Below are positions 1,719 to 32,932 of a DNA stretch of 32,932 bases, in pieces (the first letter of the stretch is position 1; each line of letters starts with the position of its first letter). Position numbers and translations under genes: made by a program. The DNA comes from a virus: the IMG/VR virus record IMGVR_UViG_3300033149_006278, positions 1-32,932 of that record, one strand, 5' to 3'. Under the pieces are notes generated by a model, which searched no databases, was not told the DNA's origin, and saw nothing but the letters and a program-made list of their open reading frames with translations.

Positions 1719-1922
1719 ATGAGAAATTTTCTAAAAAAACATTGGAAGATAGCATTAGTGATAGGACTTATTGTTGTCTGGGCTATTGGTACAACGATAA
1801 GTACTTGTATTTTATTTCAAAAACATGTCAATAGTATTGAATATCAGTTAAAGAAACTTAACAAAGAAATTAAAGAAATTGAAAAAACTGTTGAAAAATA
1901 TGAAAATAGGAGAAAAATGTGA
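1719..1922 (+). CDS. Small single-pass membrane protein with coiled coil
   Basis: A 67-residue protein: a basic N-terminus (KKHWK), one transmembrane helix at about 11-31, then a Lys/Glu-rich coiled coil to the end. This resembles phage small membrane proteins of unknown role and, loosely, inner-membrane spanins, but the replication-gene setting argues against lysis. The ATG lacks a Shine-Dalgarno and is preceded by structured element 1. Its ATG-TGA end overlaps the GTG start of the UvsX gene. Function unknown. Confidence 0.6.
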   Translation: MRNFLKKHWKIALVIGLIVVWAIGTTISTCILFQKHVNSIEYQLKKLNKEIKEIEKTVEKYENRRKM

Positions 1923-2848: not shown

Positions 2849-2898
2849 AATTTTAAATGAAGTTGCAAAAATTTGATGAAGGAAAAATTGGAAATAAA

Positions 2899-3816: not shown

Positions 3817-4066
3817 ACATTCTTTATTTCCTTATTATAAAGAAATCGATATTAGTATGGAAAAATATCGTGTATATGTTTTTAGTGGGGGTGATGAAGT
3901 ACGAATTGATAACCCAAAATTCTTAATTGTTTCTGATAATGGACATCGTGTTGGAGATTCAGTAGAAGTATCACATTATATTCCTTATAAATGGATTCAC
4001 CTTTATTGGGAAAATTACTCCCCAGAAAAAGGAATGTTTTATTGTCAAGGAAGAACAAAAAAATGA
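3803..4066 (+). CDS. Small conserved hypothetical protein, paralogue of the 26903 gene
   Basis: An 87-residue, probably mostly beta-strand protein with no recognised family. Its core KEIDIS..EKYRVYVF...DEVRIDNPK..IV..N.HRV is clearly related to the protein at 26903-27193 (EVIDIS..AYRLYRY...TTIIHDPK..FVYANNDHKV), including the later W-x-HL. The chosen ATG 3803 follows a good GGAGGA at 3791-3796; an ATG at 3779 has none. Its stop overlaps the gp47-like start as ATGA. Function unknown. Confidence 0.75.
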   Translation: MKQTKHSLFPYYKEIDISMEKYRVYVFSGGDEVRIDNPKFLIVSDNGHRVGDSVEVSHYIPYKWIHLYWENYSPEKGMFYCQGRTKK

Positions 4067-5082: not shown

Positions 5083-5297
5083 TGAGTATTTTAATAAATC
5101 CACTTAATGGTAAATATGAAGATAAGATAGAAATATATACTAGATATTATCCTTCAGATGCATAGACAAATTATTGTATTAATTTGAAACAATATAATGG
5201 TGATGATATTGAAGTATTGTTTTCTGATTTTTCTGATATGATAAGAGCAGTTAATCATTTGTTGATAGGATATAATGTTGTAAAATTGAAAGATTAG
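5082..5297 (+). pseudogene. Small gene interrupted by in-frame amber TAG at 5163-5165
   Basis: ATG 5082 overlaps the previous TAA and follows GGAAGGGGG. The frame gives 27 residues (MSILINPLNG to YYPSDA), a TAG at 5163-5165, then 43 more codons (TNYCINLKQYNG to YNVVKLKD) ending at TAG 5295-5297. A GTG gene starts 12 bases later behind its own GGAG. Both halves look like one 71-position protein, since nothing else fills the interval. A CAG or CAA to TAG change is the simplest explanation; suppression or readthrough is the alternative. Product unknown. Confidence 0.6.
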
Positions 5298-5309
5298 ATT
5301 GGAGATATA

Positions 5310-5636
5310 GTGAGAAAATATAATGGTTCTTGGGGAAATCAAAAGTCTATGAAGAATCTATGGGAAATTATTGGTGATAACAATAAAAAACGAAGATGTA
5401 TTGGCAGTATTTTTAGTTGTCATCGTCAGGATATTAATAATTTACTTATTTCTGATTTGTCAAATGATTTGAAAAGACGTGTTTTGGTTTGGATGAAGCT
5501 TTGGTATAAAAAACGAATATTTGAGGATACTAAGTGTTTGACTGATTATGAGAAGCGACATTTATATTCAGCAATTATGGGAACGCAAAGGGAGGCATAT
5601 AGGGAAATCAAAAAAGTAGAAGATAGATTGGCATAG
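5310..5636 (+). CDS. Hypothetical basic helical protein
   Basis: 108 residues, rich in Lys/Arg and Trp (RRVLVWMKLWYKKR near 60-73), predicted mainly helical, with no recognised domain. It starts at GTG 5310 with GGAG at 5300-5303. It sits between the gp47-like and gp46-like genes and may act with that complex, but only position suggests this. Its TAG stop is in frame with the gp46-like ATG 12 bases downstream, so readthrough would fuse the two; this is probably coincidence. Confidence 0.7.
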   Translation: MRKYNGSWGNQKSMKNLWEIIGDNNKKRRCIGSIFSCHRQDINNLLISDLSNDLKRRVLVWMKLWYKKRIFEDTKCLTDYEKRHLYSAIMGTQREAYREIKKVEDRLA

Positions 5637-5645
5637 GAAACAAAA

Positions 5646-7571: not shown

Positions 7572-7840
7572 TGAAAAATTTACGTATTTGGTTTAAGGCT
7601 TCATTATCTGATGGACGGAATTTTGTTGATGTTGTTTCATATAAAATGTTTGAATTTGGTACTCAATTTACAGTTATTGGAACTAAAGTTTGGTATTTGG
7701 AACTAAATTTAGGTAATGGGTTGTTTTCAAATATACCATTAAGTAATGTTTTGTATATTGAGCCATTGCCTAAAATTAAAATTGATGAAGATTCTACTGA
7801 TAATTCTGGTAGTGGTGAAATTCCAGGTCATTTAAGATAA
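7571..7840 (+). CDS. Hypothetical small beta-rich protein
   Basis: 89 residues, with alternating hydrophobic residues suggesting a small beta-barrel over the first 70 and an acidic, Ser/Gly-rich tail (DEDSTDNSGSG). No family recognised. Its start overlaps the gp46-like stop (TAATG) with GGAGGT eight bases upstream, so it is translationally coupled to the recombination complex. Function unknown. Confidence 0.7.
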   Translation: MKNLRIWFKASLSDGRNFVDVVSYKMFEFGTQFTVIGTKVWYLELNLGNGLFSNIPLSNVLYIEPLPKIKIDEDSTDNSGSGEIPGHLR

Positions 7841-7841
7841 A

Positions 7842-8459
7842 ATGAGTAAAGATTGGAAAGCCTTTGAACGGTCTATAGCTAAGGCTTTTACAGAAGTCTA
7901 TTATCCAGTAGGTGATGGTGAATTTCGTAGAACGAGTGCTTTTACACAGTCTGGTGGGTTTGGAAAAGATATGGTTTGTGGGGATTTAGTTGCTTTAAAA
8001 TATGGGGTAGAAAGTAATGTATATATTGATAAAACATTTCCATTTTCTATTGAATGTAAAAATTGGAAGGAGGAAAATGTTAAACATTTCTTTTCTGGGT
8101 TATATAGCCAAGAATCTGTTATTTTTTCTTGGATGCAGCAGGCTTATGTAGATTCTGCTCGATTTAATAAAATTCCTTTAGTGGCTTTTAGATTGTTTAG
8201 ACAGAAAAGTGTGGCTTTGTTGCAATCTACTGATTTTTCAAAATTAAAGGAAATGTTTGGGGAACCAGAAACTAAATATTATTTTTTGTGTCGGCTTGGA
8301 CTTACTGCTGAGGAACAAGTTTTATATCGTAATAGGTTGGTTTTTATCTTACTTAAAGATTTTATAAATTGGATAGATTGGGAAGTCTATAAATTCTCTA
8401 ATCGTAGATTTATTAAGAGTTTAATAAAGAAAGGAGAATTGACGGATGACGACTCGTAG
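7842..8459 (+). CDS. PD-(D/E)XK nuclease-like protein, resolvase-type
   Basis: 205 residues. The N-terminal half has a PD-(D/E)XK core: an early Glu in KAFERSIAKAF (E9), then RRTSAFTQSGGFGKD, the acidic GDLVAL (D48) and FSIECKNWK (E71-x-K73). The Arg/Ser/Gly-rich stretch before the first acid resembles archaeal-type Holliday-junction resolvases and related phage nucleases. It may cut branched or replication-intermediate DNA. The C-terminal half is helical and unassigned. It starts two bases after the preceding gene and overlaps the following one. Fold assignment is fairly good; exact substrate unknown. Confidence 0.7.
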   Translation: MSKDWKAFERSIAKAFTEVYYPVGDGEFRRTSAFTQSGGFGKDMVCGDLVALKYGVESNVYIDKTFPFSIECKNWKEENVKHFFSGLYSQESVIFSWMQQAYVDSARFNKIPLVAFRLFRQKSVALLQSTDFSKLKEMFGEPETKYYFLCRLGLTAEEQVLYRNRLVFILLKDFINWIDWEVYKFSNRRFIKSLIKKGELTDDDS

Positions 8460-8757
8460 ACAACAGAAAGAAAATCTTCGCAAACTTCAGAATTATATGT
8501 GGGCAAAACGTAATGAGAATAAGGATACTGATGTTAAGAAAGAAAAACAAAAAAAAGAAGATGAGTTACGTAAGAAACGTAGAAAACGACAAAAGAATTT
8601 AAAAGATAACAAAAAACGTCTTGAACGTGATCGTAAACGTAGGAATTCTGATAAAAATCCTAATGCTGTTGAGGTTAGTATGTTTGGTGGGAAAAGAATT
8701 ATAGAAATAACTCCGAGGAAAAGAAAGATGTTTAGAAAAGGAAAGAAAAATGTCTGA
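8446..8757 (+). CDS. Very basic Lys/Arg-rich hypothetical protein
   Basis: 103 residues, with long Lys/Arg/Glu runs (ELRKKRRKRQKNL, RLERDRKRR) and a basic tail (KRKMFRKGKKN). Only 75-88 (VEVSMFGGKRIIEI) looks foldable. Such composition suggests nucleic-acid binding. It overlaps the nuclease gene by 14 bases, with AAAGGAGA upstream of ATG 8446, and its stop overlaps the next start. It may be a partner of the nuclease; this rests only on charge and position. Confidence 0.7.
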   Translation: MTTRRQQKENLRKLQNYMWAKRNENKDTDVKKEKQKKEDELRKKRRKRQKNLKDNKKRLERDRKRRNSDKNPNAVEVSMFGGKRIIEITPRKRKMFRKGKKNV

Positions 8758-9019
8758 TTTTGACAGAAGATGGAGAGAACGTTAGCAGATGATTGAGGAT
8801 GTAAAAAAGGAAGTAAGAAACAAAAGAAAAGATAATAGTGTTAGAATTATAAAAGAAGTCAAAATAATTTGTTGTCGTGATTGTCCATTTTGTGAGAGAG
8901 AATTTGTTCGTAATATTTGTTCTCTTTATGATAGGAAACCAATACCACATGAAGTTTTTTATATTCCAGAGTCCAAACCTGAATGGTGTAGTATTGAATT
9001 TATTTTGGTAGGGAGTTGA
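8750..9019 (+). pseudogene. Cys-rich small protein with in-frame amber TAG at 8783-8785
   Basis: From ATG 8750, after AAGGAAAG, the frame reads MSDFDRRWRER, then TAG 8783-8785, then 77 codons from QMIEDVKKEV to the TGA at 9017-9019. An in-frame ATG at 8789 could restart translation (76 residues), with GGAGAG 10-12 bases upstream, so a shortened product is possible. The body carries a probable zinc site: C-C-x2-C-x2-C near 29-35 of the short form and further Cys at about 45 and 68. No family recognised. The amber sits in the same frame as both starts, as in the 5082 gene. Confidence 0.65.
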
Positions 9020-9021
9020 GA

Positions 9022-9429
9022 ATGAGAAACCTAAGTCATAGAATTGTAGCTGTTGATCTTGATGATACTATTTTTGAAACCAATTCGTATTTTTTGGAAT
9101 ATTCTCCTGTTGTGCTGGATGGTAAACCAATGAAATATGTTATTGAATCATTAAAAATATTGAAGGAATCTGGATTTGAAATAGTTGTGTTTACATGTAG
9201 GATGAATCCTGAAGAAGAATGTAATATGTCATATTCTATGGAAGATATTGAAAGAGTTATCAGACAGAAACTTATTGAATTTGATATACCATTTGATAGA
9301 ATTTCATTATATAAACCTATAGCTGATATTTATATTGATGATAGAGGTTTTCATTTTAAAAATTGGAAAGATACAATAGAATATTTATTTAATTTAGGAT
9401 GGGTAGAACGAAAAATAAAGGAGGAATAA
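9022..9429 (+). CDS. HAD-superfamily hydrolase
   Basis: 135 residues with compact HAD motifs: DLDDTIFET (motif I, nucleophile D and D+2), VVFTCRM (motif II Thr), a Lys in ISLYKPIADI (motif III) and IYIDDRG (motif IV). It should hydrolyse a phosphate ester, perhaps a nucleotide or a polynucleotide 3' phosphate; the substrate cannot be read from the sequence. ATG 9022 has GGGAG at 9011-9015. A TTG at 9016 overlapping the previous stop is the alternative start. It is short for the family and lacks a cap domain. Confidence 0.8.
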   Translation: MRNLSHRIVAVDLDDTIFETNSYFLEYSPVVLDGKPMKYVIESLKILKESGFEIVVFTCRMNPEEECNMSYSMEDIERVIRQKLIEFDIPFDRISLYKPIADIYIDDRGFHFKNWKDTIEYLFNLGWVERKIKEE

Positions 9430-10113
9430 ATGGATAAGAAATCACTTTTGATTTTTTGGAGATCTATGTCTTCTATTCTTTTGGTTCTTCTTATTTTGAA
9501 TGTTGGTCGTAATTCTCAATTATTGAGGGAGAGAGAAAGATCCGACAGAGACCAATGGATTGAAATAGAAGCTACAAAGATGCAAGTTCCTGGAATTGCT
9601 AAATACATGATGATTGTAAAAGAGATTGATTTGGCTGCTAAAGATAAACTTTCTGCTTATGAGATCACAGAGATTGCGAAAATAATTATTGAACAATGTC
9701 ACCTGAATTCTGATATTGGTCTTACTCCAGCATTAATTCTTGCTATTATAGAAAGAGAGAGTAATTTTGATCCAGATGTTGTGAGTTATGCTCATGCTTA
9801 TGGATTGATGCAGATCATTGAAACGACTTGGGCTATACATGCTGATGAAGCTGGTTATGGTCATTTTACTAAAGAGATAGCTCTTGATCCTATTGTGAAT
9901 GTGCAGATTGGGGTTAAAGAACTAATCAGACTTAGAAAATATTGGCTTGAAAATGAAGTGGACTCTTGGATGATTACAGTGAATTCATATTTTTGGGGAA
10001 CAACAAATGTTTGGACTATGTTGAATTCCAAAAAGCGTGGCAATTTACCATCACTTGAATATGGTAAAGGAATTATAGATTTAGCTAAAAAATGGAGAGA
10101 AAGAGGTGTCTAG
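9430..10113 (+). CDS. Membrane-anchored lytic transglycosylase (SLT domain)
   Basis: 227 residues. An N-terminal transmembrane segment at about 12-26 would anchor it in the inner membrane with the enzyme outside. The SLT core spans about 95-220: catalytic IIERESNFDP (E110), AYGLMQI at 123-129, TTW, and later NSYFWG. It would cleave peptidoglycan glycan strands. It may help genome entry or lysis, but the setting is an early-type small-gene region rather than the endolysin locus. GGAGG precedes the ATG. Domain call firm; role inferred. Confidence 0.88.
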   Translation: MDKKSLLIFWRSMSSILLVLLILNVGRNSQLLRERERSDRDQWIEIEATKMQVPGIAKYMMIVKEIDLAAKDKLSAYEITEIAKIIIEQCHLNSDIGLTPALILAIIERESNFDPDVVSYAHAYGLMQIIETTWAIHADEAGYGHFTKEIALDPIVNVQIGVKELIRLRKYWLENEVDSWMITVNSYFWGTTNVWTMLNSKKRGNLPSLEYGKGIIDLAKKWRERGV

Positions 10114-10120
10114 TTAAAAA

Positions 10121-10327
10121 ATGAGTATTTTTGATTCATTGAAGGAATTATTAGGTCTTCGCAAGCCTACAAAGGAAGACATGAAGATGGCTTCTAAAGA
10201 GATGGATCTTTTCATGCGTAGAGGTGGATATGTTCCATATAGGCATGGTAGGCGAAGATTTGTTAAGAGAAAGAAAAGCAAAGATGGTGAGGTAAAAACT
10301 GTTGGAGAAGGAAAAATAATTGAGTAG
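10121..10327 (+). CDS. Hypothetical small basic protein
   Basis: 68 residues. The N-terminal helix (IFDSLKELLGLRKPTKEDMK) is followed by a basic patch with RRGGYVPYRHGRRRF and KRKKSK, suggesting nucleic-acid or virion contact. No family recognised. It starts eight bases after the transglycosylase and ends over the next TTG start. Confidence 0.6.
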   Translation: MSIFDSLKELLGLRKPTKEDMKMASKEMDLFMRRGGYVPYRHGRRRFVKRKKSKDGEVKTVGEGKIIE

Positions 10328-10550
10328 AAAAGTTGAAGTAACACAGGAACTTATAGAAAGAGCTAAATCAACTTTTTCTGATTCTAAGACTAGATTTACT
10401 CCATTATCTAAGTTGGATTTAACACGAGCCGAGATTAGGGCTTTGGAGAAAAAAAATCTTGTTGAAAAAATGAGAATGTTTGCTGATCGAAAATTTACTA
10501 ATACAACACCTTCTATGTATTATGTTTGGAGATGGAAAAATGGAAACTAG
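10320..10550 (+). CDS. Hypothetical small protein with helix-turn-helix-like segment
   Basis: 76 residues. SKLDLTRAEIRALEKKNLVE resembles a recognition-helix-like unit, followed by a Trp/Tyr-rich end (MYYVWRWKNGN). It starts at TTG 10320 with AAGGAAAA upstream, overlapping the preceding TAG stop. Possible DNA-binding protein; no family recognised. Confidence 0.55.
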   Translation: MSRKVEVTQELIERAKSTFSDSKTRFTPLSKLDLTRAEIRALEKKNLVEKMRMFADRKFTNTTPSMYYVWRWKNGN

Positions 10551-10974
10551 ATTATGTCCTTTTTTGAGTGCTAATCATTTAGAAACTTGTGCTGAAACGT
10601 GTATGTTTTATCTTAGTGAGAAACGAAGTTGTGCATTGATTTCAAAATCTAATGATTTTCCGACTTTGAACTTTGATGATTTTGGTATGTTGATCAAAAA
10701 AATGGATAATGGGTACTTAATTATAATGGCAGATGACAATAAGTTTTTACAGTTTGTGTATGAAGAAAATGATTTCAATGAAAAATCAAGAGTTGATACT
10801 ATGGTTAAATTATTGTATGATGTTTTAGGATATTTTTATTTGGAATCTAAATATGACAGAGATAGAATTCGTATTATTACTGAAGTTGGAGAGAAATATT
10901 CATTAAAAGAAAATGAAAAACTTGTTTCAAAAATGTATGTAAAAGTGGAGAAAAATGAAAAAGAGAAGGAATAA
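10540..10974 (+). CDS. Hypothetical Cys-containing protein
   Basis: 144 residues. The N-terminus has a likely metal site, CPFLSANHLETCAETCMFYL followed by C about ten residues on, then a mixed alpha/beta region and a Lys/Glu tail. No family recognised. ATG 10540 lies behind GGAGATGG; a longer open frame from 10480 encodes the shadow of the previous gene. It overlaps both neighbours. Confidence 0.65.
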   Translation: METRLCPFLSANHLETCAETCMFYLSEKRSCALISKSNDFPTLNFDDFGMLIKKMDNGYLIIMADDNKFLQFVYEENDFNEKSRVDTMVKLLYDVLGYFYLESKYDRDRIRIITEVGEKYSLKENEKLVSKMYVKVEKNEKEKE

Positions 10975-11404
10975 AGTACCCAAAACTAAGACTAAGCCAA
11001 CAATTTCAGTAAAAGATAAAATTGAAGAGATTGCTGTTGGTATTATTTATAAAATGGAGATTTATCGTGATGTTCTTGCTTTATTGCAAAGGAAGAATAA
11101 ACTAACACGAGAGAGACAGTTTGAAGTTTCAGTTAGAATTGATTCTTATATGCAAATTTTGGTTGGAGTTATGGGACTTAGTATCTCTTATATTGAAGAA
11201 ATACGTAAATTGATAAAACAAAATTTGGAATGGTGGAATAATGAAGTTGATATCTTTGCTGATAGAAACTATGGAGTTAAAAAAATTAATATTGTGACAA
11301 TGAGAGAGTTTGAGCACGAATTGAAATATCATGAGACAAGGAAGCAGCTAATAAGAAAGACAGTTTCTGATGCAAAAGAGAAAAATATTTTAATTAAACC
11401 ATAA
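10955..11404 (+). CDS. Hypothetical helical protein
   Basis: 149 residues: a basic N-terminus (MKKRRNKVPKTKTK), then mostly helices with amphipathic patterning and a Lys/Arg-rich end. No recognised motif. It overlaps the preceding gene by 20 bases with GTGGAG upstream. Codon use matches its neighbours. Confidence 0.65.
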   Translation: MKKRRNKVPKTKTKPTISVKDKIEEIAVGIIYKMEIYRDVLALLQRKNKLTRERQFEVSVRIDSYMQILVGVMGLSISYIEEIRKLIKQNLEWWNNEVDIFADRNYGVKKINIVTMREFEHELKYHETRKQLIRKTVSDAKEKNILIKP

Positions 11405-11414
11405 GGAGTTTATA

Positions 11415-11927
11415 GTGAGTAAAGATTTGTCTTCTTTTGATTCATTTCTAAATGCTTGTAAAAGCCAATGGGAAGAAGGTGGTAGAAGATACGCATATTC
11501 AAAAAATAAGGAATCAACGGATATAATTACTGAAATAGTTGGAAATGAGTGGATTGGTGGGAATATTGCTAAATATGTATATGAAATTTGGAATGCAAAA
11601 CGACAAAATGAATTGTTGCCGGAAGTTGATTTTTTTAAAATTGCTGTATATGCATTTATTTGGTGGATTAAAGAATTTAAGCAGGAGTATACAACAGTTG
11701 AAGCCAAAAAGAAATACTGGTCAGAATTTGTTGAAAATGTTAGATATTGTAAGTCTGACTTTTTTGTTGTTAAAGATGATTTTATAGATATTGTTTCATA
11801 TTTGGTTAATATAGAACGGAATGACGAAACTTTATATTTTACTTTAGCAATGGATGCCTATATGTGGTGGATACAGGAACAAGAAAATTTAACAGATAGA
11901 GACAAAGGTGAAGAATTTGAGAAATGA
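11415..11927 (+). CDS. Hypothetical Trp-rich protein with internal repeat
   Basis: 170 residues. Two related helical units are visible: FFKIAVYAFIWWIKEFK and YFTLAMDAYMWWIQEQ, about 75 residues apart, suggesting internal duplication. An earlier GGNIAKYVYEIWNAK loosely recalls the GN-x2-KY pattern of DUF3310-type phage proteins, but this is weak. GTG start with AAGGAG nine bases upstream. Function unknown. Confidence 0.65.
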   Translation: MSKDLSSFDSFLNACKSQWEEGGRRYAYSKNKESTDIITEIVGNEWIGGNIAKYVYEIWNAKRQNELLPEVDFFKIAVYAFIWWIKEFKQEYTTVEAKKKYWSEFVENVRYCKSDFFVVKDDFIDIVSYLVNIERNDETLYFTLAMDAYMWWIQEQENLTDRDKGEEFEK

Positions 11928-12127
11928 CAAAATTAATTGAGCGTTTTTTTCAGAGGAAGGTAGTTTGTGAATTTTTTAGAATGTTTGACTATTATTGTAT
12001 TGAAAAATTTTGGGATGCTGAGGAAAAGGAAATTGAAGATTTTTGGTTATCTTTGTCTTCTCGGATAGAAAAGTTATATTATAAATTTGGGTTGGGTGTA
12101 TATGGAGATATAGATGAATATTTTTGA
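11924..12127 (+). CDS. Hypothetical small aromatic-rich protein
   Basis: 67 residues, rich in Phe, Tyr and Trp and predicted helical (FFRMFDYYCIEKFWDAEEKE). No family recognised. It is coupled to the preceding gene by an ATGA overlap and ends 12 bases before the reductase gene. Confidence 0.6.
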   Translation: MTKLIERFFQRKVVCEFFRMFDYYCIEKFWDAEEKEIEDFWLSLSSRIEKLYYKFGLGVYGDIDEYF

Positions 12128-12139
12128 TTTGGAGAAATA

Positions 12140-14788
12140 ATGAGCAAAGTTTGTTTGATAAATAGAAATGAATGTGCTGCTGAGGCAAGTTATTATGATG
12201 ATGGGGAGGATTGGGAGTCTTTATGTAAAAGAGTTTCTTCAGCAATTGCTACTGGTGAAGAGAATTATAAATCCATTTCGAATGCCTTTTATGAAATTCT
12301 TTATAACAAAAAATTTATTCCAGGTGGTCGTATATTGCGTAATGCCGGCAAATTAAAACGTAATTTGCTTAATTGTTTTGTTATTCCAGTTGAGGATAGT
12401 ATTGAATCTATTGGAAATTGTTTCTGTGATTCACTTATTACTTGGGCTTATGGTGGTGGTGTGGGAGTTAATTTTTCTTCACTAAGACCTAAAGGGGCTA
12501 AAATTGAGAGTAAGGGTGGGGAATCATCTGGATTGGTATCGTTTTTAGATGCACTGAATGGTGTTGCTGATACTATTGAAGTTGGAGGACAGAGGAGGGC
12601 AGCATGCATAGCTATTGTTGATGTTTCTCATCCTGAAATTGAGGAATTTATTGATGCAAAATTGACTTATGGTAAATTAAATCATTTCAATATTTCAGTT
12701 GCTATTAATAATTTATTTCTTGAAGCCGTTGAGCGTGATAGTGATTGGAATTTGGAGTTTAGGCAAAAAGTTTATCGTACAGTTAAAGCGAAATCTTTAT
12801 GGAATAAAATACTTAAAAATATGATTGAGAGTGCTGAACCTGGACTTATTAATATGGATAATCTAATTAAGTCTAATAGTTACTATTTTGCTCCAATTGT
12901 TGGTACAAATCCTTGTCAGCCTTATCATGCACCAGTTTTAACACGAAATGGAGTTGCTAAAATAGGTTCATTGAAAATTGGAGATGAGATTTGGAGTGAG
13001 AATGGCTGGGTTAAGGTAACTCAAAAATTTAATTTGGGGAAAAAAGATGTTTATAAAATTTGTACTTCTTTTGGAGTATTTTTTGGAACTTTAAATCATA
13101 AAATTAAATCAGAGAATAAAAAAATTGAAGTAGGAAATGCCAAATTTGCTGATATTTTATATGGATTTAGGGGTAATCAAGAAATAACATGGAATAAAAG
13201 AGCAATAATGGATGGACTATTAATTGGTGATGGATCTGTTCATAAGACATCTAATAATTTAATTTATTTATGTATTGGAAAAAATGACAGTGATTATTTT
13301 AAATCTGAGATTAGTGATTTAATCATAAAACATAGACCAGGAATTCGTTATTATGCATATGAAGTATCTGGGACTCTTACATATGAAGAACTTCCTAAAA
13401 CATATAAAAGGCAAGTTCCTGATAGGTATAAGTATGCTGATATTAATGTTATTTGCTCATTTCTTCGTGGGATATTTTCAGCAAATGGGTCTGTTTTAAA
13501 AAAATATAAACAAATAGTTTTGAAGTCAACATCAAAAGTATTGATTGAGGATATTCAAATGATGTTGTCAGCTGTTGGTATTAAATCATATTTTACAACT
13601 AATAAGAAAAGGAGTGTTAAATTTAAAAATGGGTTGTATAATTGTAGGGAAAGTTATGATATAAATATAACAAGTGATTGTTCCATTTTTCAGCAGAAAA
13701 TAGGATTTATTCAAAGATATAAAAATAATTTATTGGATGAAATTATTAAAAAAAATCCAATTAAAAATAATAAAAATACATATAAAATATTAAGTAAAGA
13801 ATATTTTTCCAGAGAAGATGTTTTTGATATAACTGTTGATGGACCTAGTCATACATATTGGTCTGGTGGTTATAATGTTTCAAATTGTGGTGAACTTCCT
13901 CTTGGTGCTTATGGGTCTTGTGATTTAGGATCAATCAACTTACCAAAGTTTGTTACAGATGGTGGTAGTACACAGTGGGCATCTCTTAAAGAGACTATTC
14001 AAATTGCGGTTAGATTTTTAGATAATGTTATTGATATCACAACATTTCCAATTTCAAAAATGCAACATGTGGCCGAAGAAGGTAGGAGGATTGGATTAGG
14101 CGTTATGGGTCTTGCAGATTATTTTTTTAAAAAGCAGATTAGATATGGCTCAGAAAAGGCTATTTTAGAATTGGAGAATTTATTTAAATTTATTCGAAAT
14201 ACTGCATATATAGAAAGTATATCTCTTGCTAACGAAAAAGGACCATTTCAAAAGTTTGATCCAGTTGATTACGGAAAGGCAAGTTTTATAAGAAAACTTC
14301 CTGCTAAAATAAGAAAAAGTATAAAAGATTATGGTATAAGGAATTCGTCTTTAATGACTTGTGCTCCTACTGGAACAACTTCATTGGTTGCTGGAGTAAC
14401 TTCTGGGGTTGAGCCACTTTTTTCAAAAGCTTATGTTAGAAAAGATAAATTTGGGGAAACTATTTTTATTCATCCAATTTATGAGGAAATTATAAAAAAC
14501 AAAACAAAAATTCCAGATTGGTTTGTTGATGCACATGATTTAAGTCCAGAAGAGCATTTTGAAACTCAGGCTGTTATTCAAAGATATGTTGATGGTGCCA
14601 TATCTAAAACTATTAATCTTCCAGAAAAGACTACAGTGACCCAATTGTCTGAATGGTTATTGGAATATGCATATGAACTTAAAGGTGTTACTGTCTATGT
14701 AGATAAATCAATGAAAGAACAAGTATTGTATCCAATGACTAAGAAAAAAGTTTTGGAATATATAGGTGGATTAAAGAATGACAGCTAA
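12140..14788 (+). CDS. nrdJ: Class II (B12-dependent) ribonucleotide reductase with intein
   Basis: 882 residues, 558 after removal of a 324-residue intein. It reduces ribonucleotides to deoxyribonucleotides for phage DNA synthesis. Visible: LLNCFVIPVEDS (first redox Cys, C79), AYGGGVGVNFS, GGQRRAA and, across the splice site, TNP|CGELPLGAYGSCDLGSINL, giving N257, C583 and E585 of the active site and C594 as second redox Cys; then RRIGLGVMGLAD and MTCAPTGTTS. No small NrdB subunit is nearby, fitting class II. The protein ends soon after TVYVDKSMKEQVLYP and lacks the usual C-terminal Cys pair. GGAG lies before ATG 12140. Confidence 0.92.
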   Translation: MSKVCLINRNECAAEASYYDDGEDWESLCKRVSSAIATGEENYKSISNAFYEILYNKKFIPGGRILRNAGKLKRNLLNCFVIPVEDSIESIGNCFCDSLITWAYGGGVGVNFSSLRPKGAKIESKGGESSGLVSFLDALNGVADTIEVGGQRRAACIAIVDVSHPEIEEFIDAKLTYGKLNHFNISVAINNLFLEAVERDSDWNLEFRQKVYRTVKAKSLWNKILKNMIESAEPGLINMDNLIKSNSYYFAPIVGTNPCQPYHAPVLTRNGVAKIGSLKIGDEIWSENGWVKVTQKFNLGKKDVYKICTSFGVFFGTLNHKIKSENKKIEVGNAKFADILYGFRGNQEITWNKRAIMDGLLIGDGSVHKTSNNLIYLCIGKNDSDYFKSEISDLIIKHRPGIRYYAYEVSGTLTYEELPKTYKRQVPDRYKYADINVICSFLRGIFSANGSVLKKYKQIVLKSTSKVLIEDIQMMLSAVGIKSYFTTNKKRSVKFKNGLYNCRESYDINITSDCSIFQQKIGFIQRYKNNLLDEIIKKNPIKNNKNTYKILSKEYFSREDVFDITVDGPSHTYWSGGYNVSNCGELPLGAYGSCDLGSINLPKFVTDGGSTQWASLKETIQIAVRFLDNVIDITTFPISKMQHVAEEGRRIGLGVMGLADYFFKKQIRYGSEKAILELENLFKFIRNTAYIESISLANEKGPFQKFDPVDYGKASFIRKLPAKIRKSIKDYGIRNSSLMTCAPTGTTSLVAGVTSGVEPLFSKAYVRKDKFGETIFIHPIYEEIIKNKTKIPDWFVDAHDLSPEEHFETQAVIQRYVDGAISKTINLPEKTTVTQLSEWLLEYAYELKGVTVYVDKSMKEQVLYPMTKKKVLEYIGGLKNDS
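12914..13885 (+). mobile_element. Intein with LAGLIDADG homing endonuclease in nrdJ
   Basis: Residues 259-582 of the NrdJ precursor. It begins with Cys1 in CQPYHAPVLTRNG, has the block-A/N2-type KIGSLKIGDEIW and a block-B-like GTLNHKI, then DOD-endonuclease motifs LLIGDGSV (about 360-367) and GIFSANGSV (about 444-452). It ends with FDITVDGPSHTYWSGGYNVSN before C+1. The penultimate residue is Ser instead of the usual His. The second endonuclease motif has Asn where an acid is expected, so DNA cleavage may be weak. Splicing would restore TNPCGE. Confidence 0.92.
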
Positions 14789-15545
14789 TGATATTAAATA
14801 TTTCCTGAGATTAAAATATTCTAGAGAATGGGCTTTTTATGAAGAATTTCGTCCTTTTACTGGATATGCAGGAAATGTTAGTCAAATAGATGCTATTGCG
14901 GTAGGAATGTATGAAAAAAATGAAAAAATAATTGCATTTGAAATAAAAGTTAATAGAGCAGATTTTCTTAATGATATTTCGCAGTTTCAATACAAACATC
15001 GATTTGCTTTAAAATTGAGTCATGAGTTTTATTATGTTTGTCCTTGGGGATTGATTGATAAGAATGAAATTCCTGATGTTGCAGGTCTCTTATATATCAA
15101 TAAGGGAAATAAGATATCAAGAATAAAGGTTGCTCCGATTAGAACATTTGATAGTATAAAATTATGTTATCTTCAAGCATTTCTTCAAAATTCTAGAAAA
15201 CGTATTAATTATGCTGAAATTCCAGTTAAATATCTAGGCAAAGAATGGACTCAACAAGAATTTATGGAAGAAATTAATCGTATGATTGAAAAACAACGAA
15301 GTGATAGTGATGATTGTGAAATTAACAGACGAGTGAGAGAAAAACTTAAAAAAGATGGTGCTTATTGTGAAATTGTTAGGGATCTTTTTAATCATGCAGG
15401 ATTAGCTTGGATGTATGAAGAAAGATTTACAGAAGCTATATCAAAAATTAAAAAAATGATAGATAATGGTAAGACAGTTAATTCATTGAGAGTTTATGCA
15501 CAAAATGCGATTGATAGACTATCCTATCTTTTGGATAAAAAATGA
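14778..15545 (+). CDS. PD-(D/E)XK nuclease-like protein (MmcB-like core)
   Basis: 255 residues. The first 120 show a nuclease core: QIDAIAVGMYE (D38), IIAFEIKVNRADFLND (E55-x-K57), then YYVCPWGLI, the arrangement of MmcB-like DNA-repair nucleases and related phage proteins. The C-terminal half is helical and charged and unassigned. It overlaps nrdJ by 11 bases with GGTGGA upstream and is followed by a DNA methyltransferase gene. The cut site is unknown; a restriction partner for the methyltransferase is possible but unsupported. Confidence 0.7.
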   Translation: MTANDIKYFLRLKYSREWAFYEEFRPFTGYAGNVSQIDAIAVGMYEKNEKIIAFEIKVNRADFLNDISQFQYKHRFALKLSHEFYYVCPWGLIDKNEIPDVAGLLYINKGNKISRIKVAPIRTFDSIKLCYLQAFLQNSRKRINYAEIPVKYLGKEWTQQEFMEEINRMIEKQRSDSDDCEINRRVREKLKKDGAYCEIVRDLFNHAGLAWMYEERFTEAISKIKKMIDNGKTVNSLRVYAQNAIDRLSYLLDKK

Positions 15546-15554
15546 GGTGGTTAA

Positions 15555-16073
15555 ATGATACCTTTTCCTAATAAAAAATATAGATTAATTTATGCAGATC
15601 CACCTTGGACTTATAGAAATAAAAGAACTGGTGGATCTTTGAAAAGTGGTTCAGCATTTCAATATGCTGTAATGTCTTTAGATGAAATTTGTAATTTGCC
15701 AATTAGAGATATTTCCGAAGAAGATTCAGTGCTTTTTCTTTGGGTAACTTGTCCTATGCAAGAAGAAGGGATGAAAGTTATGAAGGCTTGGTGTTATAAA
15801 TATAAAACAAAAATTTATTGGCGAAAAATTATGTCTCTTGGAATGGGTTTTTGGTTTAGAGGTCAAGTTGAAGAATTGTGGTTGGGAGTTAGGGGAAATA
15901 TTAGAGCATTTAGATTACAGGTTCCGAATTTTATTCAAACAAAAGTATTAAGACATTCTGAAAAGCCAGAAGAAGCAAGAAAAATAATAGAAATGACCAA
16001 ATTAGAGCCAAGAATTGAACTTTTTGCTAGAAAGAAAATAAATGGATGGGATGCGTGGGGTGATGAAATATGA
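15555..16073 (+). CDS. MT-A70 family N6-adenine methyltransferase
   Basis: 172 residues with the MT-A70 pattern: YRLIYADPPWTY (catalytic DPPW, 15-18), MSLDEICNLPI, SVLFLWVTCPMQEEGMKVM, FWFRGQVEELWLGVRG, and the end RHSEKPEEARKIIE...RIELFARKKINGWDAWGDE. It should transfer methyl from SAM to adenine N6, probably on phage DNA to evade restriction; RNA as target cannot be excluded from sequence alone. GAGGTGG precedes the ATG; it overlaps the primase gene as ATGA. Length is normal for phage members. Confidence 0.92.
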   Translation: MIPFPNKKYRLIYADPPWTYRNKRTGGSLKSGSAFQYAVMSLDEICNLPIRDISEEDSVLFLWVTCPMQEEGMKVMKAWCYKYKTKIYWRKIMSLGMGFWFRGQVEELWLGVRGNIRAFRLQVPNFIQTKVLRHSEKPEEARKIIEMTKLEPRIELFARKKINGWDAWGDEI

Positions 16074-16996
16074 TTTTAGATGAAATTTTCCCAGATGGTG
16101 AATGGGTATCTAACTCTGAATATAGGATAAGATGTCCTATCTGTGGAGATCATCCAGATCATACTCATTGTTATATAAATATAGATAAAAAATTCTTTTT
16201 TTGTCATTATAGTGGATGTAAAGGACACATAAATAAAATCTTAAAATATGAAAATGTCGAATTAGAACCAAGCCAAGAAATAACACAAGAGGATATAGAA
16301 AAAATTGATTTTTCAAGATTTCCTAAAGTTACAGGCAAAGAAGGTTCAAGTGATCGACTAGCATTTACTTATTTAAAAAGCAGAGGCTTAGAAAGAGAAG
16401 ATATTGAAAAATATGATATCCATTATGCCTCATCTGGAAGATTTTTTGGTCGTGTTTTAATCCCAGTTTATGAAAACAAAAAAATTGTATGTTTTGTTGG
16501 AAGAAGCTATTTAAAATTTGTAAAGCCAAAATACTTATTTCCAAGAAAAAGAGAAACTATTCTCACAGCGAATGAATCATTATTTGGCTACGACAAAATA
16601 ATTGAGGCTTCAGAAAAAGAAAAAAATTTGGAAGTATGGTTAGTGGAGGGTATTTTTGATGCAATAGCAATTGACAAAAAACTTAATGCTTTGGGTATAG
16701 CCTTGTTAAGTAAGAATGCGTCCAAAGGACAATTAAATAAGATTAGGCAATTACCAGAAAATATAAAACTTGGTGCTATGTTTGATGCTGATGCACATAA
16801 AGATACTTTAAAAACTGTTGAAATATTAAAAAAAGAATATGATAGAGAGATTTTGTGTGTTCAATTGAAGAGAGGAGATCCAGCCTCAGCTACTAGTGAT
16901 GAATTAGCTGAGGCTGTTGAGTCCTCTGAAATTTATTCTGATGAATTGAAAATAAAAACAGAATTTGAAGATGATAATTATTGTTTTGATTTGTAA
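16070..16996 (+). CDS. DNA primase with zinc finger and TOPRIM domain
   Basis: 308 residues. The N-terminal zinc-ribbon is CPICG at 22-26 with C45 and C50 (FFCHYSGCKGH), as in DnaG and T7 primases. The TOPRIM region has VWLVEGIFDAIAI (E193) and the metal-binding MFDADAHKD (D239, D241). It would lay down RNA primers for lagging-strand replication. No helicase domain is fused and none is recognised in the window. It begins by ATGA overlap with the methyltransferase gene. Confidence 0.9.
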   Translation: MILDEIFPDGEWVSNSEYRIRCPICGDHPDHTHCYINIDKKFFFCHYSGCKGHINKILKYENVELEPSQEITQEDIEKIDFSRFPKVTGKEGSSDRLAFTYLKSRGLEREDIEKYDIHYASSGRFFGRVLIPVYENKKIVCFVGRSYLKFVKPKYLFPRKRETILTANESLFGYDKIIEASEKEKNLEVWLVEGIFDAIAIDKKLNALGIALLSKNASKGQLNKIRQLPENIKLGAMFDADAHKDTLKTVEILKKEYDREILCVQLKRGDPASATSDELAEAVESSEIYSDELKIKTEFEDDNYCFDL

Positions 16997-22765: not shown

Positions 22766-22960
22766 ATGTCAGTGATGAATATATTTGCTGCGGTTATTGT
22801 TGCTGTGGTTTTTTTAGGAACTATTCTGTTATTTGTTGGTCTTGGTTGTGATGATGAAAGACCAATATTGTTTGGATTATTTACTTTGGCATTTGGTGCA
22901 TTGGTTGCAATTATTTTGTTTTTTGTTTTATTGCTTAGTCAATTTTGTTGTGCATTATGA
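22766..22960 (+). CDS. Small two-pass membrane protein
   Basis: 64 residues with helices at about 5-27 and 35-58 around a short CDDERP loop; it ends SQFCCAL. No family recognised. ATG 22766 has a poor ribosome-binding site; ATG 22775 is an alternative. Its TGA overlaps the start of the MuF-type gene. Confidence 0.6.
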   Translation: MSVMNIFAAVIVAVVFLGTILLFVGLGCDDERPILFGLFTLAFGALVAIILFFVLLLSQFCCAL

Positions 22961-24465
22961 GATTAAATGAGGTCGAATTTCAATTTTTTTTGAATTTAAT
23001 TGAACAGTCTGAAAAATCATTTGTTCAAAAAAAATATCGTGATTTAGCTTCAACGGTTCATGCAAATATGTTATTCCGTATGGGCTTACAAGATCCAGAA
23101 TCTATGAAAGCTGGAATTGAGGCTTATAACAAGGCAATGAGTGCTCTTAAAATTGATTTACTTGATATCTATGCCAAATATTCAGCTGGTACTTATGATA
23201 TTTCATTAGCTATGTCACGATTTAAAGAAGTTTTGGGTACTAGATATCAGGAAATTTTTAAAGCTGGTGCAATGGCTACTGGAAATTTTTATTATAAAGA
23301 TATTGGGTTGACAAAAAAAGATAAGGCATTTATTGCAAGTGCTCGAAGAAAAGAGATGGGGTTTTTTAGGAAATTTTTGGTTGATATCAAGAATCCATCT
23401 CATGTTCCAATTCATCCTTATGAAAAAAGAATAGAATATTATCAACAATCAGCAAAAAGTATGTATTTTAATGGACAAGTTGCAGGATTTGGAACTGATG
23501 TTGAAATAAGATGGGTGCTTGATTTTGCATCAGAAAGTTGCATTGATTGTATTAATTTATCAAGAAGAGTGTGGACTTGGGAGACACTTCCTGCTATTCC
23601 AAGGGCAGGATTGACATCATGTCTTATGCGTTGCAGATGTCATCTTGACTTTCGTTATAAAGGGGCATTGAAACGTTTTGAAATTGGTGGAATGGCTACT
23701 TCTGCTTCACTTACAGCACCTGGTCGTTATTCTCGTGTTTTTGATTTAATGGGAAATGAAATAGGTGGGGAGATTCAAAAGTTTGTTGAAGATTTAAGTG
23801 CTAGAATGAACAAAGCTCGTCAGATGATTGAAATAACAGAAGGGACAGAAAAAATAAGGTGGATAAATATAAGATCAACTCTTAATCAGCAGTTGATAGA
23901 TTTACAAAAATCAAGAAAAATAAGGACTATTCCATCTATCTCTGTTATGGATTTAGAATCAACAATAAAAACAATTGCTGAGAGAGGTGGACATTTGATA
24001 GATGACTTTTCAAATATAATTATTGGTGATGAAGTAATTTTTGTTCGTTCAAATTTTTCAGCTGCTGGGATTATTGTTTTTGAGAAAAACAGATTGGTAT
24101 TTCATTCTGGTTCTGGTTATAACATTCCTATTGATGATGAGATTGATATTATATTTTCTTTGGGAAATAAGGTTCGTAATCAATCTTTGAGTACTATTGC
24201 TTTGAAGTTTGAAGAGACATCTTCTGCTGTGGCTACAGTTCAGACAATTAAATTATTATTACAGTCTGGTGAATCTATTCTACCTATAGCAGTTGATAAA
24301 GCTAATCCTTCAATAATAGTTAGTGGGACTGAACGTGCTCAAGCTTATAAAGAATTAGGGTATAAAAAAATTCCAGTTGTGAGAGTAGATAGAGACCAAT
24401 TTTTAGATGATTTGGCTGATTATGGTGAAGAAGAGGCTCTTAGAAGACAAGGATGGAATGGATAA
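22957..24465 (+). CDS. MuF-type head protein fused to a ParB-like domain
   Basis: 502 residues. The first 240 are helical and end in the Cys cluster ESCIDCINLSRRVWTWE (C195, C198) then CLMRCRCHLDFR (C222, C226, C228), matching the C-x2-C...C-x-C signature of SPP1 gp7/Mu gpF head-morphogenesis proteins. A linker of about 90 residues follows. The C-terminus (about 425-480) reads SILPIAVDKANPSIIVSGTE then RAQAYKELGYKKIPVVRVD, the ParB/Srx-like fold pattern. Fused toxins or enzymes are common at MuF C-termini. ATG 22957 (ATGA overlap) is preferred over TTG 22945. It should be a minor head protein delivered with DNA. Confidence 0.8.
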   Translation: MRLNEVEFQFFLNLIEQSEKSFVQKKYRDLASTVHANMLFRMGLQDPESMKAGIEAYNKAMSALKIDLLDIYAKYSAGTYDISLAMSRFKEVLGTRYQEIFKAGAMATGNFYYKDIGLTKKDKAFIASARRKEMGFFRKFLVDIKNPSHVPIHPYEKRIEYYQQSAKSMYFNGQVAGFGTDVEIRWVLDFASESCIDCINLSRRVWTWETLPAIPRAGLTSCLMRCRCHLDFRYKGALKRFEIGGMATSASLTAPGRYSRVFDLMGNEIGGEIQKFVEDLSARMNKARQMIEITEGTEKIRWINIRSTLNQQLIDLQKSRKIRTIPSISVMDLESTIKTIAERGGHLIDDFSNIIIGDEVIFVRSNFSAAGIIVFEKNRLVFHSGSGYNIPIDDEIDIIFSLGNKVRNQSLSTIALKFEETSSAVATVQTIKLLLQSGESILPIAVDKANPSIIVSGTERAQAYKELGYKKIPVVRVDRDQFLDDLADYGEEEALRRQGWNG

Positions 24466-26243: not shown

Positions 26244-26315
26244 AGGTTGGTGAGGTTAATGGTAACCACTTGGTCTCCAAAACCAAGAATCTCTGTTCAA
26301 ATCGGAGCCGACCTG
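26244..26315 (+). tRNA. tRNA-Trp (CCA)
   Basis: A 72-base cloverleaf. Acceptor AGGTTGG/CCGACCT with discriminator G; D-arm around GGTTAATGGTAACC; anticodon arm TTGGT-CTCCAAA-ACCAA gives CCA; variable GAAT; T-arm CTCTG-TTCAAAT-CGGAG. CCA is not encoded. The pair at D-stem positions 10-25 is A-A. The CCA anticodon reads UGG only, which argues against TGA being used for Trp. Confidence 0.92.
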
Positions 26316-26342
26316 CTGAAAATTATTCCTTGGAGGTTTTGA

Positions 26343-27709: not shown

Positions 27710-28576
27710 ATGAAACGGCTTTTTGTTTTGTTATTTTTTCTTGTTTTTGCTATCTCATGCACCACAATTAATTACAATCAAGTACCGAATTCAATTTATC
27801 AACTTATTGATAGGCATGCAGTGACAATTGCTGTGAATTACTATATGCCAGATCATGAATTTTTTAAGAGGCTTTCTGAGCCATTTAAAAAGGTTTTAAT
27901 TAAGACGGATTCATTTGAGTTGTCTTATAAACAGGAAGTGATTGTTATACCAACTAGACCTGGACGGAATGCAAAAACTGGTGAGCCAATAAAATGTATG
28001 TCATATATTGGTTCTGGAACCATTTTGAGAAATAATCATATAATTTCAGTTAAGCATTTATTTGATCAAACTGAGAATATTTATGATATGCAGATTTGGG
28101 TTTTTAGACCAGGATGTACACATGCTATTAGATGTGAAGTTGTAGCTATATCTGAAGGGAAAAATTTTTTTGATGATTATGCTGTTATCAAAACAAATGA
28201 ATCATTAGGATTACCTGGATTGAAAATTGCAGAACCGTACTCAATGCATTGGGGTGAAAAAGTGATTTCAACTGGGTCACCAGGTGGTTTGGCTTTTTTT
28301 CATCGTGTTGGTTTTGTAACAAAATTGCAATCTTTTCTTTATCGTGATTCCAATAAAGATATTGTTTTGAATGATTTCAATAAATTTCCTTTTTGGGTTA
28401 TTTATCCTGGTGGACCAGGTGATAGTGGTGGATCAATAAAAAATATGAAAGGTAAAATTGTTAGTATTCTTTACTGTGGAATATCACGATATGATGAAGA
28501 ATATATATTTTCAAACCCTACTTTTATGCTGTGGGATTTTCTCAAGGAGAATAACTTAGAATGGCTTGCCGATTAG
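27710..28576 (+). CDS. Lipoprotein trypsin-like serine protease
   Basis: 288 residues. The signal peptide MKRLFVLLFFLVFAIS ends in a lipobox with C17, so it should be lipid-anchored outside the inner membrane. The catalytic triad is readable: SGTILRNNHIISVKHLF (H116), FDDYAVIK (D156) and GGPGDSGGSI (S239) with the oxyanion GDSGG pattern. STGSPGG and a late ILYCGISRYD fit the second barrel. No PDZ domain. It starts a run of envelope genes and follows AGAGG. It may process host or phage surface proteins; the target is unknown. Confidence 0.85.
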   Translation: MKRLFVLLFFLVFAISCTTINYNQVPNSIYQLIDRHAVTIAVNYYMPDHEFFKRLSEPFKKVLIKTDSFELSYKQEVIVIPTRPGRNAKTGEPIKCMSYIGSGTILRNNHIISVKHLFDQTENIYDMQIWVFRPGCTHAIRCEVVAISEGKNFFDDYAVIKTNESLGLPGLKIAEPYSMHWGEKVISTGSPGGLAFFHRVGFVTKLQSFLYRDSNKDIVLNDFNKFPFWVIYPGGPGDSGGSIKNMKGKIVSILYCGISRYDEEYIFSNPTFMLWDFLKENNLEWLAD

Positions 28577-30789: not shown

Positions 30790-31191
30790 ATGGGTGGTTT
30801 TTCTAATGCAACAGAAAATTCAGTATTAGATCATATTTTTAAGAATACATCAATGTCTCAGCCTACAAATCTTTATGTTGCACTCTGTAAATCAACAATT
30901 AGTGATACACATACTGGGTCAACACTACCAAGTGAAATATCTGGTGGTGCCTATGCTCGTAAGAAATGTAATACATGGGCAGCAGCAGCAGCTGGATCGT
31001 TGTCAAATACAATTAAAATTGAGTTTGCGGAAGCTACAGCCAACTGGGGTACAATAACTGATTTTGCTGTTTGTGATCATAGTTCAACTGGAAATGTAAT
31101 AGGATATGATAAATTGACTACAGCTAAAAAAGTTGGTACTGGTGATACGGCTAAATTTGCAACTAATGATTTGAAAGTAACTTTAGATTAA
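30790..31191 (+). CDS. Virion-type protein (Gp80-like tail/adaptor family)
   Basis: 133 residues. The sequence FSNATENSVLDHIFKNTSMS, then LYVALCKS, SGGAYARKK, a small-residue stretch (AAAAAGSLSN) and FAEATANWGTITDFAVCDHS, ending GDTAKFATNDLKVTLD, follows a common phage structural family of about 130 residues (mycobacteriophage Gp80-like) built of beta strands. Role in virion probable, exact location unknown. AGAAGGAAA precedes ATG 30790. It sits just before a surface-modifying enzyme, which may act on it or on other tail parts. Confidence 0.7.
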   Translation: MGGFSNATENSVLDHIFKNTSMSQPTNLYVALCKSTISDTHTGSTLPSEISGGAYARKKCNTWAAAAAGSLSNTIKIEFAEATANWGTITDFAVCDHSSTGNVIGYDKLTTAKKVGTGDTAKFATNDLKVTLD

Positions 31192-31211
31192 TTAAATTAG
31201 GAGATTTATTA

Positions 31212-32932
31212 ATGAAGAATGATCCCATTCTTGTTGTTGGAACTGGAAGAAGTGGGACAAGTTCAGTTGCTAGGATTTTACATAAGAATTTTAAAGTTTT
31301 TATGGGGTCTAGATTTAGAAAATCAGATGATCAAAATCCATTGGGATATTATGAAGATACTGATTTTAATACATTAAATAGTAAATTATTACTTGGTATG
31401 GTACCTTTTAATGAATGGCAAATAGCAATTGATAAGTTAATTAAAAAACGTCAAAAGTTGAACAGGTTATGGGGAATAAAAGATCCACGTTTTGCACATT
31501 TATTGGGTTTATATTTTGTATTTTTTATGAGACCTAAGATAATTAGATGTATTCGTGATAAAGAGCTAGTTATCAATAGTCTTATGAAATATTATGAATG
31601 GGATAGGAAACAATCTGAACTTTTATATTACACACGAGAAGCTAATCTTGATAGGTTGTTAATTGGACGTAATCGTGATGTATTGAATATTCGATTTGAT
31701 TCAGATTATATTTCTGATGAATCATTAGTTCGTATGATTGGTAGACGCTTTTTTGAGAAGAATAAAGTTTATTTAGCTATTCTTAATAAAGGTTGGTTGC
31801 GTAGAGAGATTATCTATAAGATGTTGCCACAGATGACGAATACACCAGGTGTTGAAGTTGTTTGGGAGAACCCAAATTTAACCTATGATCATCCTATTTT
31901 TAGCAATAGAAATCAAATAAGGCTACGATTTTTGCAGACTGACTGTACTCATTTGTTAATGATTGATGATGATGTTATTCCATATGATAATCCTATTCCA
32001 TATGTTTGGGCAGATAAAGATATTATAGGATTTCCAGCTAAAGTTAGGCAACATGGACAATCTGTAAATTGGGTAGCCTATATGAAGCATCCATCAACGC
32101 AAACAGGTTATTCTGCTATTGATTTTGGTGTGGTTGATGATGATGTTGATTTAATAAAATGTGATGCTATTGGTACTGGTTGTATATTAATAAAAAGAAA
32201 GGTATTGGAGAAATTGGAATCACCATTTACTATTCTTATTGATGATAATGGTGTTTGTACAATGGGAACTGATTTTGCATTTTGTAAAAAAGCTACTGAA
32301 AATGGTTTTGAAGTATATTCTTCAACAAAATTAGTTTGTGAGCATGTAAAAGAAACTGGATTACTTGATATTACAGCCTATGATGATAGTGATTATCGGG
32401 ATCGTAGTATAGGTATATATAAGATACCTTGGGGTGATATGTCCATTACACAAAAAGATTGGCACTTTATTCGAGATATAATTGACGATATAAAACCAAA
32501 AAAAATATTAGAATTTGGTGCTGGTCTTTCTTCATTGTTGATGTCAGAAAAAGCTAAAGTTATTAGTTATGAGACAAATACTAAATGGGCTAGACATATA
32601 AGGAAGAAACGAACGGATAGAAATAAACTCATAATTAGAAAATGGAATGGAAAAAATATAAAAGAAAAGAATTTAGATGGTTTTGATTTGGTATTTGTTG
32701 ATGGTCCTCCTAGTGAAGGAATTGGTGGTCCTGGTCGTCAATACTCTATTTCTCTTGCTTCTAAACTGTCTGATAGAATAATTATTCATGATTCAAATCG
32801 TCAGGAAGAGCGTCTATGGCAGGATAAGTATCTTCGACCACATTTCAAGTGTATTGCTCGTAATGGTCATCATCAATCATGTAGTACTTATTGGATTAGG
32901 CGTGATTTGATTAAAACTTTTGAAATTGATTT
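31212..32932 (+). CDS. Sulfotransferase / glycosyltransferase / methyltransferase-like fusion (partial)
   Basis: At least 573 residues, running off the window without a stop. Domain 1 (about 1-185) has VVGTGRSGTSS (PAPS 5'-phosphosulfate loop), WGIKDPRF and IIRCIRDKELVINSLMKYYE (3'-phosphate-binding Arg/Ser), as in sulfotransferases. Domain 2 (about 185-385) has THLLMIDDDVIPYDNP (metal-binding DDD), GTGCILIKR and GTDFAFCKKATENGFEVYSS, a GT-A glycosyltransferase pattern. Domain 3 (from about 412) has KPKKILEFGAGLSSLLMSE, VISYETN, DLVFVDGPPSE and RIIIHDS, a class I SAM methyltransferase-like fold. GGAG precedes the ATG. It may build a sulfated or methylated glycan on virion proteins or the host surface. 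Domain calls are by motif. Confidence 0.8.
   Translation, partial: MKNDPILVVGTGRSGTSSVARILHKNFKVFMGSRFRKSDDQNPLGYYEDTDFNTLNSKLLLGMVPFNEWQIAIDKLIKKRQKLNRLWGIKDPRFAHLLGLYFVFFMRPKIIRCIRDKELVINSLMKYYEWDRKQSELLYYTREANLDRLLIGRNRDVLNIRFDSDYISDESLVRMIGRRFFEKNKVYLAILNKGWLRREIIYKMLPQMTNTPGVEVVWENPNLTYDHPIFSNRNQIRLRFLQTDCTHLLMIDDDVIPYDNPIPYVWADKDIIGFPAKVRQHGQSVNWVAYMKHPSTQTGYSAIDFGVVDDDVDLIKCDAIGTGCILIKRKVLEKLESPFTILIDDNGVCTMGTDFAFCKKATENGFEVYSSTKLVCEHVKETGLLDITAYDDSDYRDRSIGIYKIPWGDMSITQKDWHFIRDIIDDIKPKKILEFGAGLSSLLMSEKAKVISYETNTKWARHIRKKRTDRNKLIIRKWNGKNIKEKNLDGFDLVFVDGPPSEGIGGPGRQYSISLASKLSDRIIIHDSNRQEERLWQDKYLRPHFKCIARNGHHQSCSTYWIRRDLIKTFEID

Follow-up and report, generated by a model that had tools for sequence, protein, structure and literature searches.

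A tailed-phage genome fragment was found to encode one protein in which a sulfotransferase (ST), a GT-A glycosyltransferase (GT) and a methyltransferase (MT) domain are fused. We propose, at a probability of roughly 0.6, that this protein is a virion-glycan enzyme which glycosylates, methylates and sulfates, comparable to the chlorovirus protein A064R with sulfation added.

An open reading frame joining three transferase domains

The window analyzed here is the whole IMG/VR record IMGVR_UViG_3300033149_006278 (G000), a linear fragment of 32,932 bases, with tailed-phage genes encoding a T4-type portal, a terminase, a UvsX-like recombinase, an SbcCD-like protein, a ribonucleotide reductase (RNR) and a spanin-like protein. 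Also observed was a 324-aa intein (12914-13885) that interrupts the NPCGE motif of the B12-type RNR (ORF 12140-14788) just ahead of its Cys (NP|C); it ends in YNVSN|C and reads like a LAGLIDADG homing-endonuclease intein (GLLIGDGS ... FLRGIFSANGS). Further features include a protein of 506 aa whose C-terminal stretch is ParB/nuclease-like, encoded directly after the portal gene (22945-24465), a tRNA-Trp (CCA anticodon) between late genes (26244-26316), and a trypsin-like peptidase (27710-28576; PF13365, 1.1e-6) whose N-terminus reads like a lipoprotein-type signal.

The fusion ORF begins with an ATG at 31212 and extends over 573 codons to 32930 on the plus strand, as do the domains and motifs given below, and an AGGAG ribosome-binding site is read from the sequence 8 nt 5' of the start (31199-31203, plus strand). 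The chance probability of such an open run at the local base composition is ~1.6e-23, and the frame is not a product of chance. Because the window is the entire record and a linear fragment, the C-terminus is cut off and the 3' end of the gene is missing at the contig end. Since complete relatives in two other contigs (L087, 565 aa; L005, 394 aa) stop at about the same residue, the ORF is probably short of full length by only a few residues.

The original prediction described three transferase-like domains in one open phage frame, and the ST, the GT-A domain with its DDD motif and the SAM-dependent MT all hold by families, folds and motifs; the joining of these domains in one phage ORF is a real observation. 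An assembly chimera was rejected as the origin of the fusion because a colinear, full triple fusion also occurs in the second contig, L087, in addition to the relative in L005. Recent capture of the ST domain was likewise rejected: GC3 is uniform, at 0.18, over the ST, GT and MT domains of the AT-rich window, and varies little between them in L087 (0.57-0.61). In neither genome does the fusion give the impression of a recent event.

Domain identities were derived from sequence families, motifs and a structural model. AlphaFold prediction from the single sequence yielded no usable model (pLDDT 32), and a model built with a 44-row alignment of relatives reached a mean pLDDT of 87.3, with a low-confidence linker at aa 381-400. 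In a fold search with the latter, the matches listed were to solved folds of the GT and MT domains, and no sulfotransferase for aa 1-181 was among them; because the other two domains account for the matches listed, this absence is no evidence against the ST assignment.

The sulfotransferase domain

The N-terminal domain (aa 1-181; 31212-31754) was modelled with pLDDT mostly of 90-98 and assigned from the Sulfotransfer_3 model PF13469 and an alignment of 26 family sequences. In isolation (aa 1-182) it scored 29.1 bits (E 1.5e-6), above the curated PF13469 cut-off of 27 bits; the corresponding scores were 24.9 bits for the whole fusion protein and 27.5 with neighbours in frame, and 19 of the 26 ST-domain relatives matched the model. 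Its motifs comprise a predicted 5'-phosphosulfate-binding loop, VVGTGRSGTSS (31233-31265), recognized by motif and family alignment; NPLGYYED (31335-31358), containing E48 (invariant in 26/26 sequences) as a candidate catalytic base; the family motif WGIKDPR (31470-31490); and a 3'-phosphate-binding motif RD......S (R115, S123; 31551-31580), predicted from the family alignment and PDB profile matches. Six residues, R13, S17, E48, K90, R115 and S123, are invariant in the family alignment and all are kept in the window protein; presumably these represent the expected PAPS contacts and the candidate catalytic Glu.

Compared against the PDB, the ST family profile matched 2z6v (7.4e-5), which carries the deposition title 'putative uncharacterized protein' and which we take to be a sulfotransferase, together with tyrosylprotein sulfotransferases (TPST1/2; 5e-4 to 1e-2) and CurM (0.25), and no kinase was present among the matches. 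A kinase reading, raised by AAA_18 matches, was rejected given that the match spans only the P-loop region and that R115/S123, KDPR and the PDB profile matches are of sulfotransferase type. The earlier assignment of this domain as a sulfotransferase, for which a kinase had been named as the competing identity, is thus borne out.

As several of the best PDB matches are tyrosylprotein sulfotransferases, the domain might instead sulfate tyrosines of the virion protein glycosylated by the GT. These matches are, however, at the motif level, and the genomic surroundings of ST relatives include GTs, an aminotransferase and a sugar epimerase, which points to a sugar acceptor; we therefore regard tyrosine sulfation as distinctly unlikely. 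A further consideration is raised by L087, in which the DPR of WGxKDPR is replaced in frame, reflecting either decay of the ST or an assembly error, such that the ST of this relative may be weak or inactive. Were the ST more generally a non-catalytic relic or a PAP-binding module, GT-MT alone would do the work, consistent with the loss of DPR in L087 and with the occurrence of GT-MT proteins lacking an ST; retention of all six invariant residues in the window protein and the uniform GC3 across its domains argue otherwise, and we give this explanation long odds.

The glycosyltransferase and methyltransferase domains

The central GT-A domain (aa 182-380; 31755-32351) matched phrog_1574 at 1.6e-11 and two glycosyltransferase PHROGs, and its fold matches include STIV A197 (Z 18.0; 2.8 A over 165 residues), LH3 (Z 17) and Mnn9 (Z 15.5), as well as Mimivirus R699 (within Z 15-18) and COLGALT1. 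A DDD (DxD) motif within LMIDDDVIP (aa 252-254; 31956-31982) is the predicted metal/nucleotide-sugar site. A second region, GTDFAFC ... VCEH (32265-32345), is retained by every ST-GT-MT and GT-MT relative and may supply the acidic residue for catalysis and the His that binds metal in GT-A enzymes. No Anp1/Mnn9 (PF03452) match above the Pfam cut-off was reported for the window protein; this cut-off was reached by a relative GT in phage record G037.

The C-terminal domain (aa 411-573; 32442-32930) fits O-methyltransferase folds with Z scores of 14-17 (about aa 411-570), and its sequence matches, to O-methyltransferase and GXM/DUF579 models, are weak. The GXM-like stretch (TIGR01627) has an E-value of 7.9e-5 and scores 22.5 bits relative to a cut-off of 149.85, and DUF579 (PF21729) scores 12.5 bits relative to a cut-off of 27.8; both fall below the thresholds for family membership. 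PF21729 was matched in 3/5 relatives. A predicted SAM-binding motif I, LEFGAGLSS (32508-32534), was identified by motif reading, and alignment of relatives delineates a conserved, predicted active-site region, DLVFVDGPP...GGPGRQ...IIHDSNR (32685-32801). Based on the model, this domain appears to be a class I SAM O-methyltransferase of COMT-like type, clearly so by fold and weakly by sequence.

Potential sources of PAPS

Indirect evidence regarding the chemistry of the ST family was found in its genomic associations. An APS kinase (PF01583, E 1.3e-46) is fused to an ST (PF13469, E 1.3e-5) in a 378-aa ORF (L114:180-1316, equivalent to G037 49180-50316) of phage record G037 (locus L083). This gene lies in an island of ~20 kb encoding another ST, GTs, MTs, a DegT-type aminotransferase and an NDP-sugar epimerase, flanked by Mu-like capsid, portal and prohead-protease genes on one side and tail-side genes on the other. 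In a bacterial relative (L100), two genes come after that for the ST-bearing protein: one with a PAPS_reduct domain, occupying the CysD position, and a CysN-APS kinase gene. Because APS kinase genes are joined to the ST in G037 and located near it in L100, the family probably carries out PAPS-dependent sulfation. No APS kinase or PAPS gene was seen in the 32,932-base window, itself a fragment.

Relatives, domain combinations and genomic context

Searches with the whole fusion protein by tblastn against 50,697 phage records returned no match, and single-protein scans of viral contigs likewise found nothing; relatives were gathered through motif- and alignment-based scans, which were not exhaustive. 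Among the 50,697 sequenced phage records, a single unverified one carries ST relatives of the window type. The original prediction regarded phage sulfotransferases as unusual, which is accurate for isolates, where they are nearly absent, but not for metagenomic phages, in which they recur and already figure among catalogued viral auxiliary genes (PMC8290583, PMC12285232, PMC10829341).

Directly 5' of the fusion ORF lies a gene for a gp80-like virion (fibre/head) protein (30790-31191, plus strand; PF23140, 4.9e-35; phrog_240), and the pairing of a gp80-like gene with a fusion or GT-MT gene is syntenic in L087, L005 and L008. The complete, colinear ST-GT-MT protein of the viral contig L087 (L087:3866-5563) is 52% identical over its length; its gene is preceded by two major capsid genes and then the gp80-like gene, and followed by a gene for a right-handed beta-helix protein with a gp80-like domain at its own C-terminal end. 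GT-MT proteins without an ST were identified in three other lineages (L005/L010/L013, L008/L009 and L011/L012; 48-54% identity), all with their genes within structural modules, and in the first two the GT-MT gene is directly or nearly 3' of the gp80-like gene. In L008, the ORF between these two genes (L008:6510-6980) reads like a LAGLIDADG homing endonuclease.

Other combinations of these domains were also identified. In one phage (L079), the tail module closes with unfused ST and GT genes that lie two apart, the ST being 45% identical and the GT related, and STs fused to different GTs occur in L084 (GT2 with TPR), L072/L078 and L093. The last of these (L093:6995-8263) is an ST-GT fusion in a Phycisphaerales genome, prophage-like and adjoining a HASTHAGGGTDPL fibre-type protein, and is a possible hint of the host. 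A phage sugar island between head-tail genes (L086:103-5047) contains an ST by domain test and, by reading, GT-like, radical-SAM-like and second ST-like ORFs. PF13469 was matched in 0/21 records with GT-MT or GT relatives. On these sequence comparisons the GT-MT pair is the shared core, with an ST in only some members, and the GT-MT tree did not distinguish the order of ST gain and loss. Related GTs are also found near tail-collar genes in the isolate Synechococcus phage ACG-2014f, and in cluster J mycobacteriophages, where the GT gene immediately follows that for the major capsid protein and an MT gene is also in the vicinity.

Relatives of the ST domain are not confined to phages: bacterial homologues occur in O-antigen/capsule-type loci (L094, L098 and L100), and the chemistry suits cell polysaccharides. 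This raises the alternative that the enzyme modifies a host surface or secreted polysaccharide, resulting in receptor masking or superinfection exclusion, in place of the virion. We consider this unlikely, given that in several lineages the gene lies in a late structural module between gp80-like and beta-helix or capsid genes, and that inspection of the fusion protein sequence reveals neither a signal peptide nor a membrane segment. Hypermodification of phage DNA bases was also considered, since some phage GTs glycosylate DNA (cited in PMC12619734) and nucleotide sulfation has been proposed from genomics (Iyer 2013, as cited in PMC10829341). The ORF is, however, situated away from the DNA-replication genes (1919-16996), close GT relatives adjoin virion genes, and the GT fold resembles protein/sugar GTs (LH3, Mnn9, COLGALT1), making a role in DNA modification very improbable.

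Proposed role in virion glycan synthesis

Modification of a virion glycan is favoured because GT relatives adjoin capsid and tail genes and because of two precedents: chlorovirus PBCV-1 A064R, whose three transferase domains have demonstrated activities and which builds and methylates the end of a capsid glycan (PMC9614988), and the capsids of Che8, which carry glycans (PMC11256854). From the domain assignments and synteny we infer a substrate, an order of steps, catalytic activity and a biological role, either particle shielding or adsorption tuning. The protein would be a single cytoplasmic enzyme, produced late alongside virion genes. Its GT-A domain, with a divalent metal and a nucleotide sugar, would begin or extend a glycan on a virion protein, most likely the product of a neighbouring fibre, beta-helix or capsid gene; the COMT-like domain would O-methylate the sugar with SAM, and the ST domain would sulfate a hydroxyl using host-derived PAPS. 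Stepwise glycan decoration had been suggested either on virion proteins or as a means of masking host receptors. Both the relatives and the synteny with capsid and fibre genes make the former target the best supported, and receptor masking lacks direct support. Weak points of the virion-glycan reading are the DPR loss in L087, the short ST, the weak MT family scores, the incomplete contig and the existence of ST-less GT-MT phages, and the target could instead be a host or soluble glycan. More broadly, and at somewhat under even odds, we tentatively suggest that some tailed phages sulfate and methylate glycans of their own particles with fused multi-transferases, some of them carrying an APS kinase-ST for the supply of PAPS.

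If true, sulfated glycans on particles would alter charge, adsorption and recognition, and viral sulfotransferases, so far only listed as auxiliary metabolic genes, would gain a concrete role. A single acceptor would receive all three chemistries through the fusion, and phage glycan decoration would be connected with host sulfate metabolism by the APS kinase-ST gene found in a phage.

Comparison with known systems

Phage sulfotransferases as metagenomic auxiliary genes and viral enzymes with three transferases are already known. In the literature searched, which left many subscription papers outside its scope, we found no description of a phage ST-GT-MT fusion, a phage APS kinase-ST fusion or sulfated virion glycans.

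Considered by domain, the window ST shares the 5' and 3' PAPS-binding motifs of Sulfotransfer_3 enzymes (bacterial polysaccharide STs and TPSTs), but is short (~180 aa), fused to GT-MT and phage-borne, with one relative lacking DPR. The GT resembles STIV A197 and Mnn9-type GT-A enzymes and phrog_1574 in fold, DxD motif and phage relatives adjoining virion genes, and differs from the A197 and Mnn9 types in its fusion to an MT and an ST and in being without a CAZy family assignment. Similarly, the MT shows an O-methyltransferase fold and a weak likeness to DUF579/GXM glucuronate 4-O-methyltransferases and COMT-like enzymes over the active-site stretch, with scores far below the DUF579/GXM family cut-offs.

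At the level of gene organization, the GT-kinase-MT-GT operon of cluster J mycobacteriophages places a GT related to that of the window beside a capsid gene, but comprises separate genes, without a sulfotransferase and with a neighbour that bears a serine/threonine kinase annotation. An unnamed 638-aa entry, M1IF74, was also returned from the viral fold library; it has the length of A064R and may correspond to it. A064R itself, like the window protein, is one viral protein of three ~200-aa transferase domains with a class I MT last. It differs in being a GT-GT-MT protein of an algal virus, with proven activities and no sulfotransferase; in the window protein, an ST takes the place of one GT.
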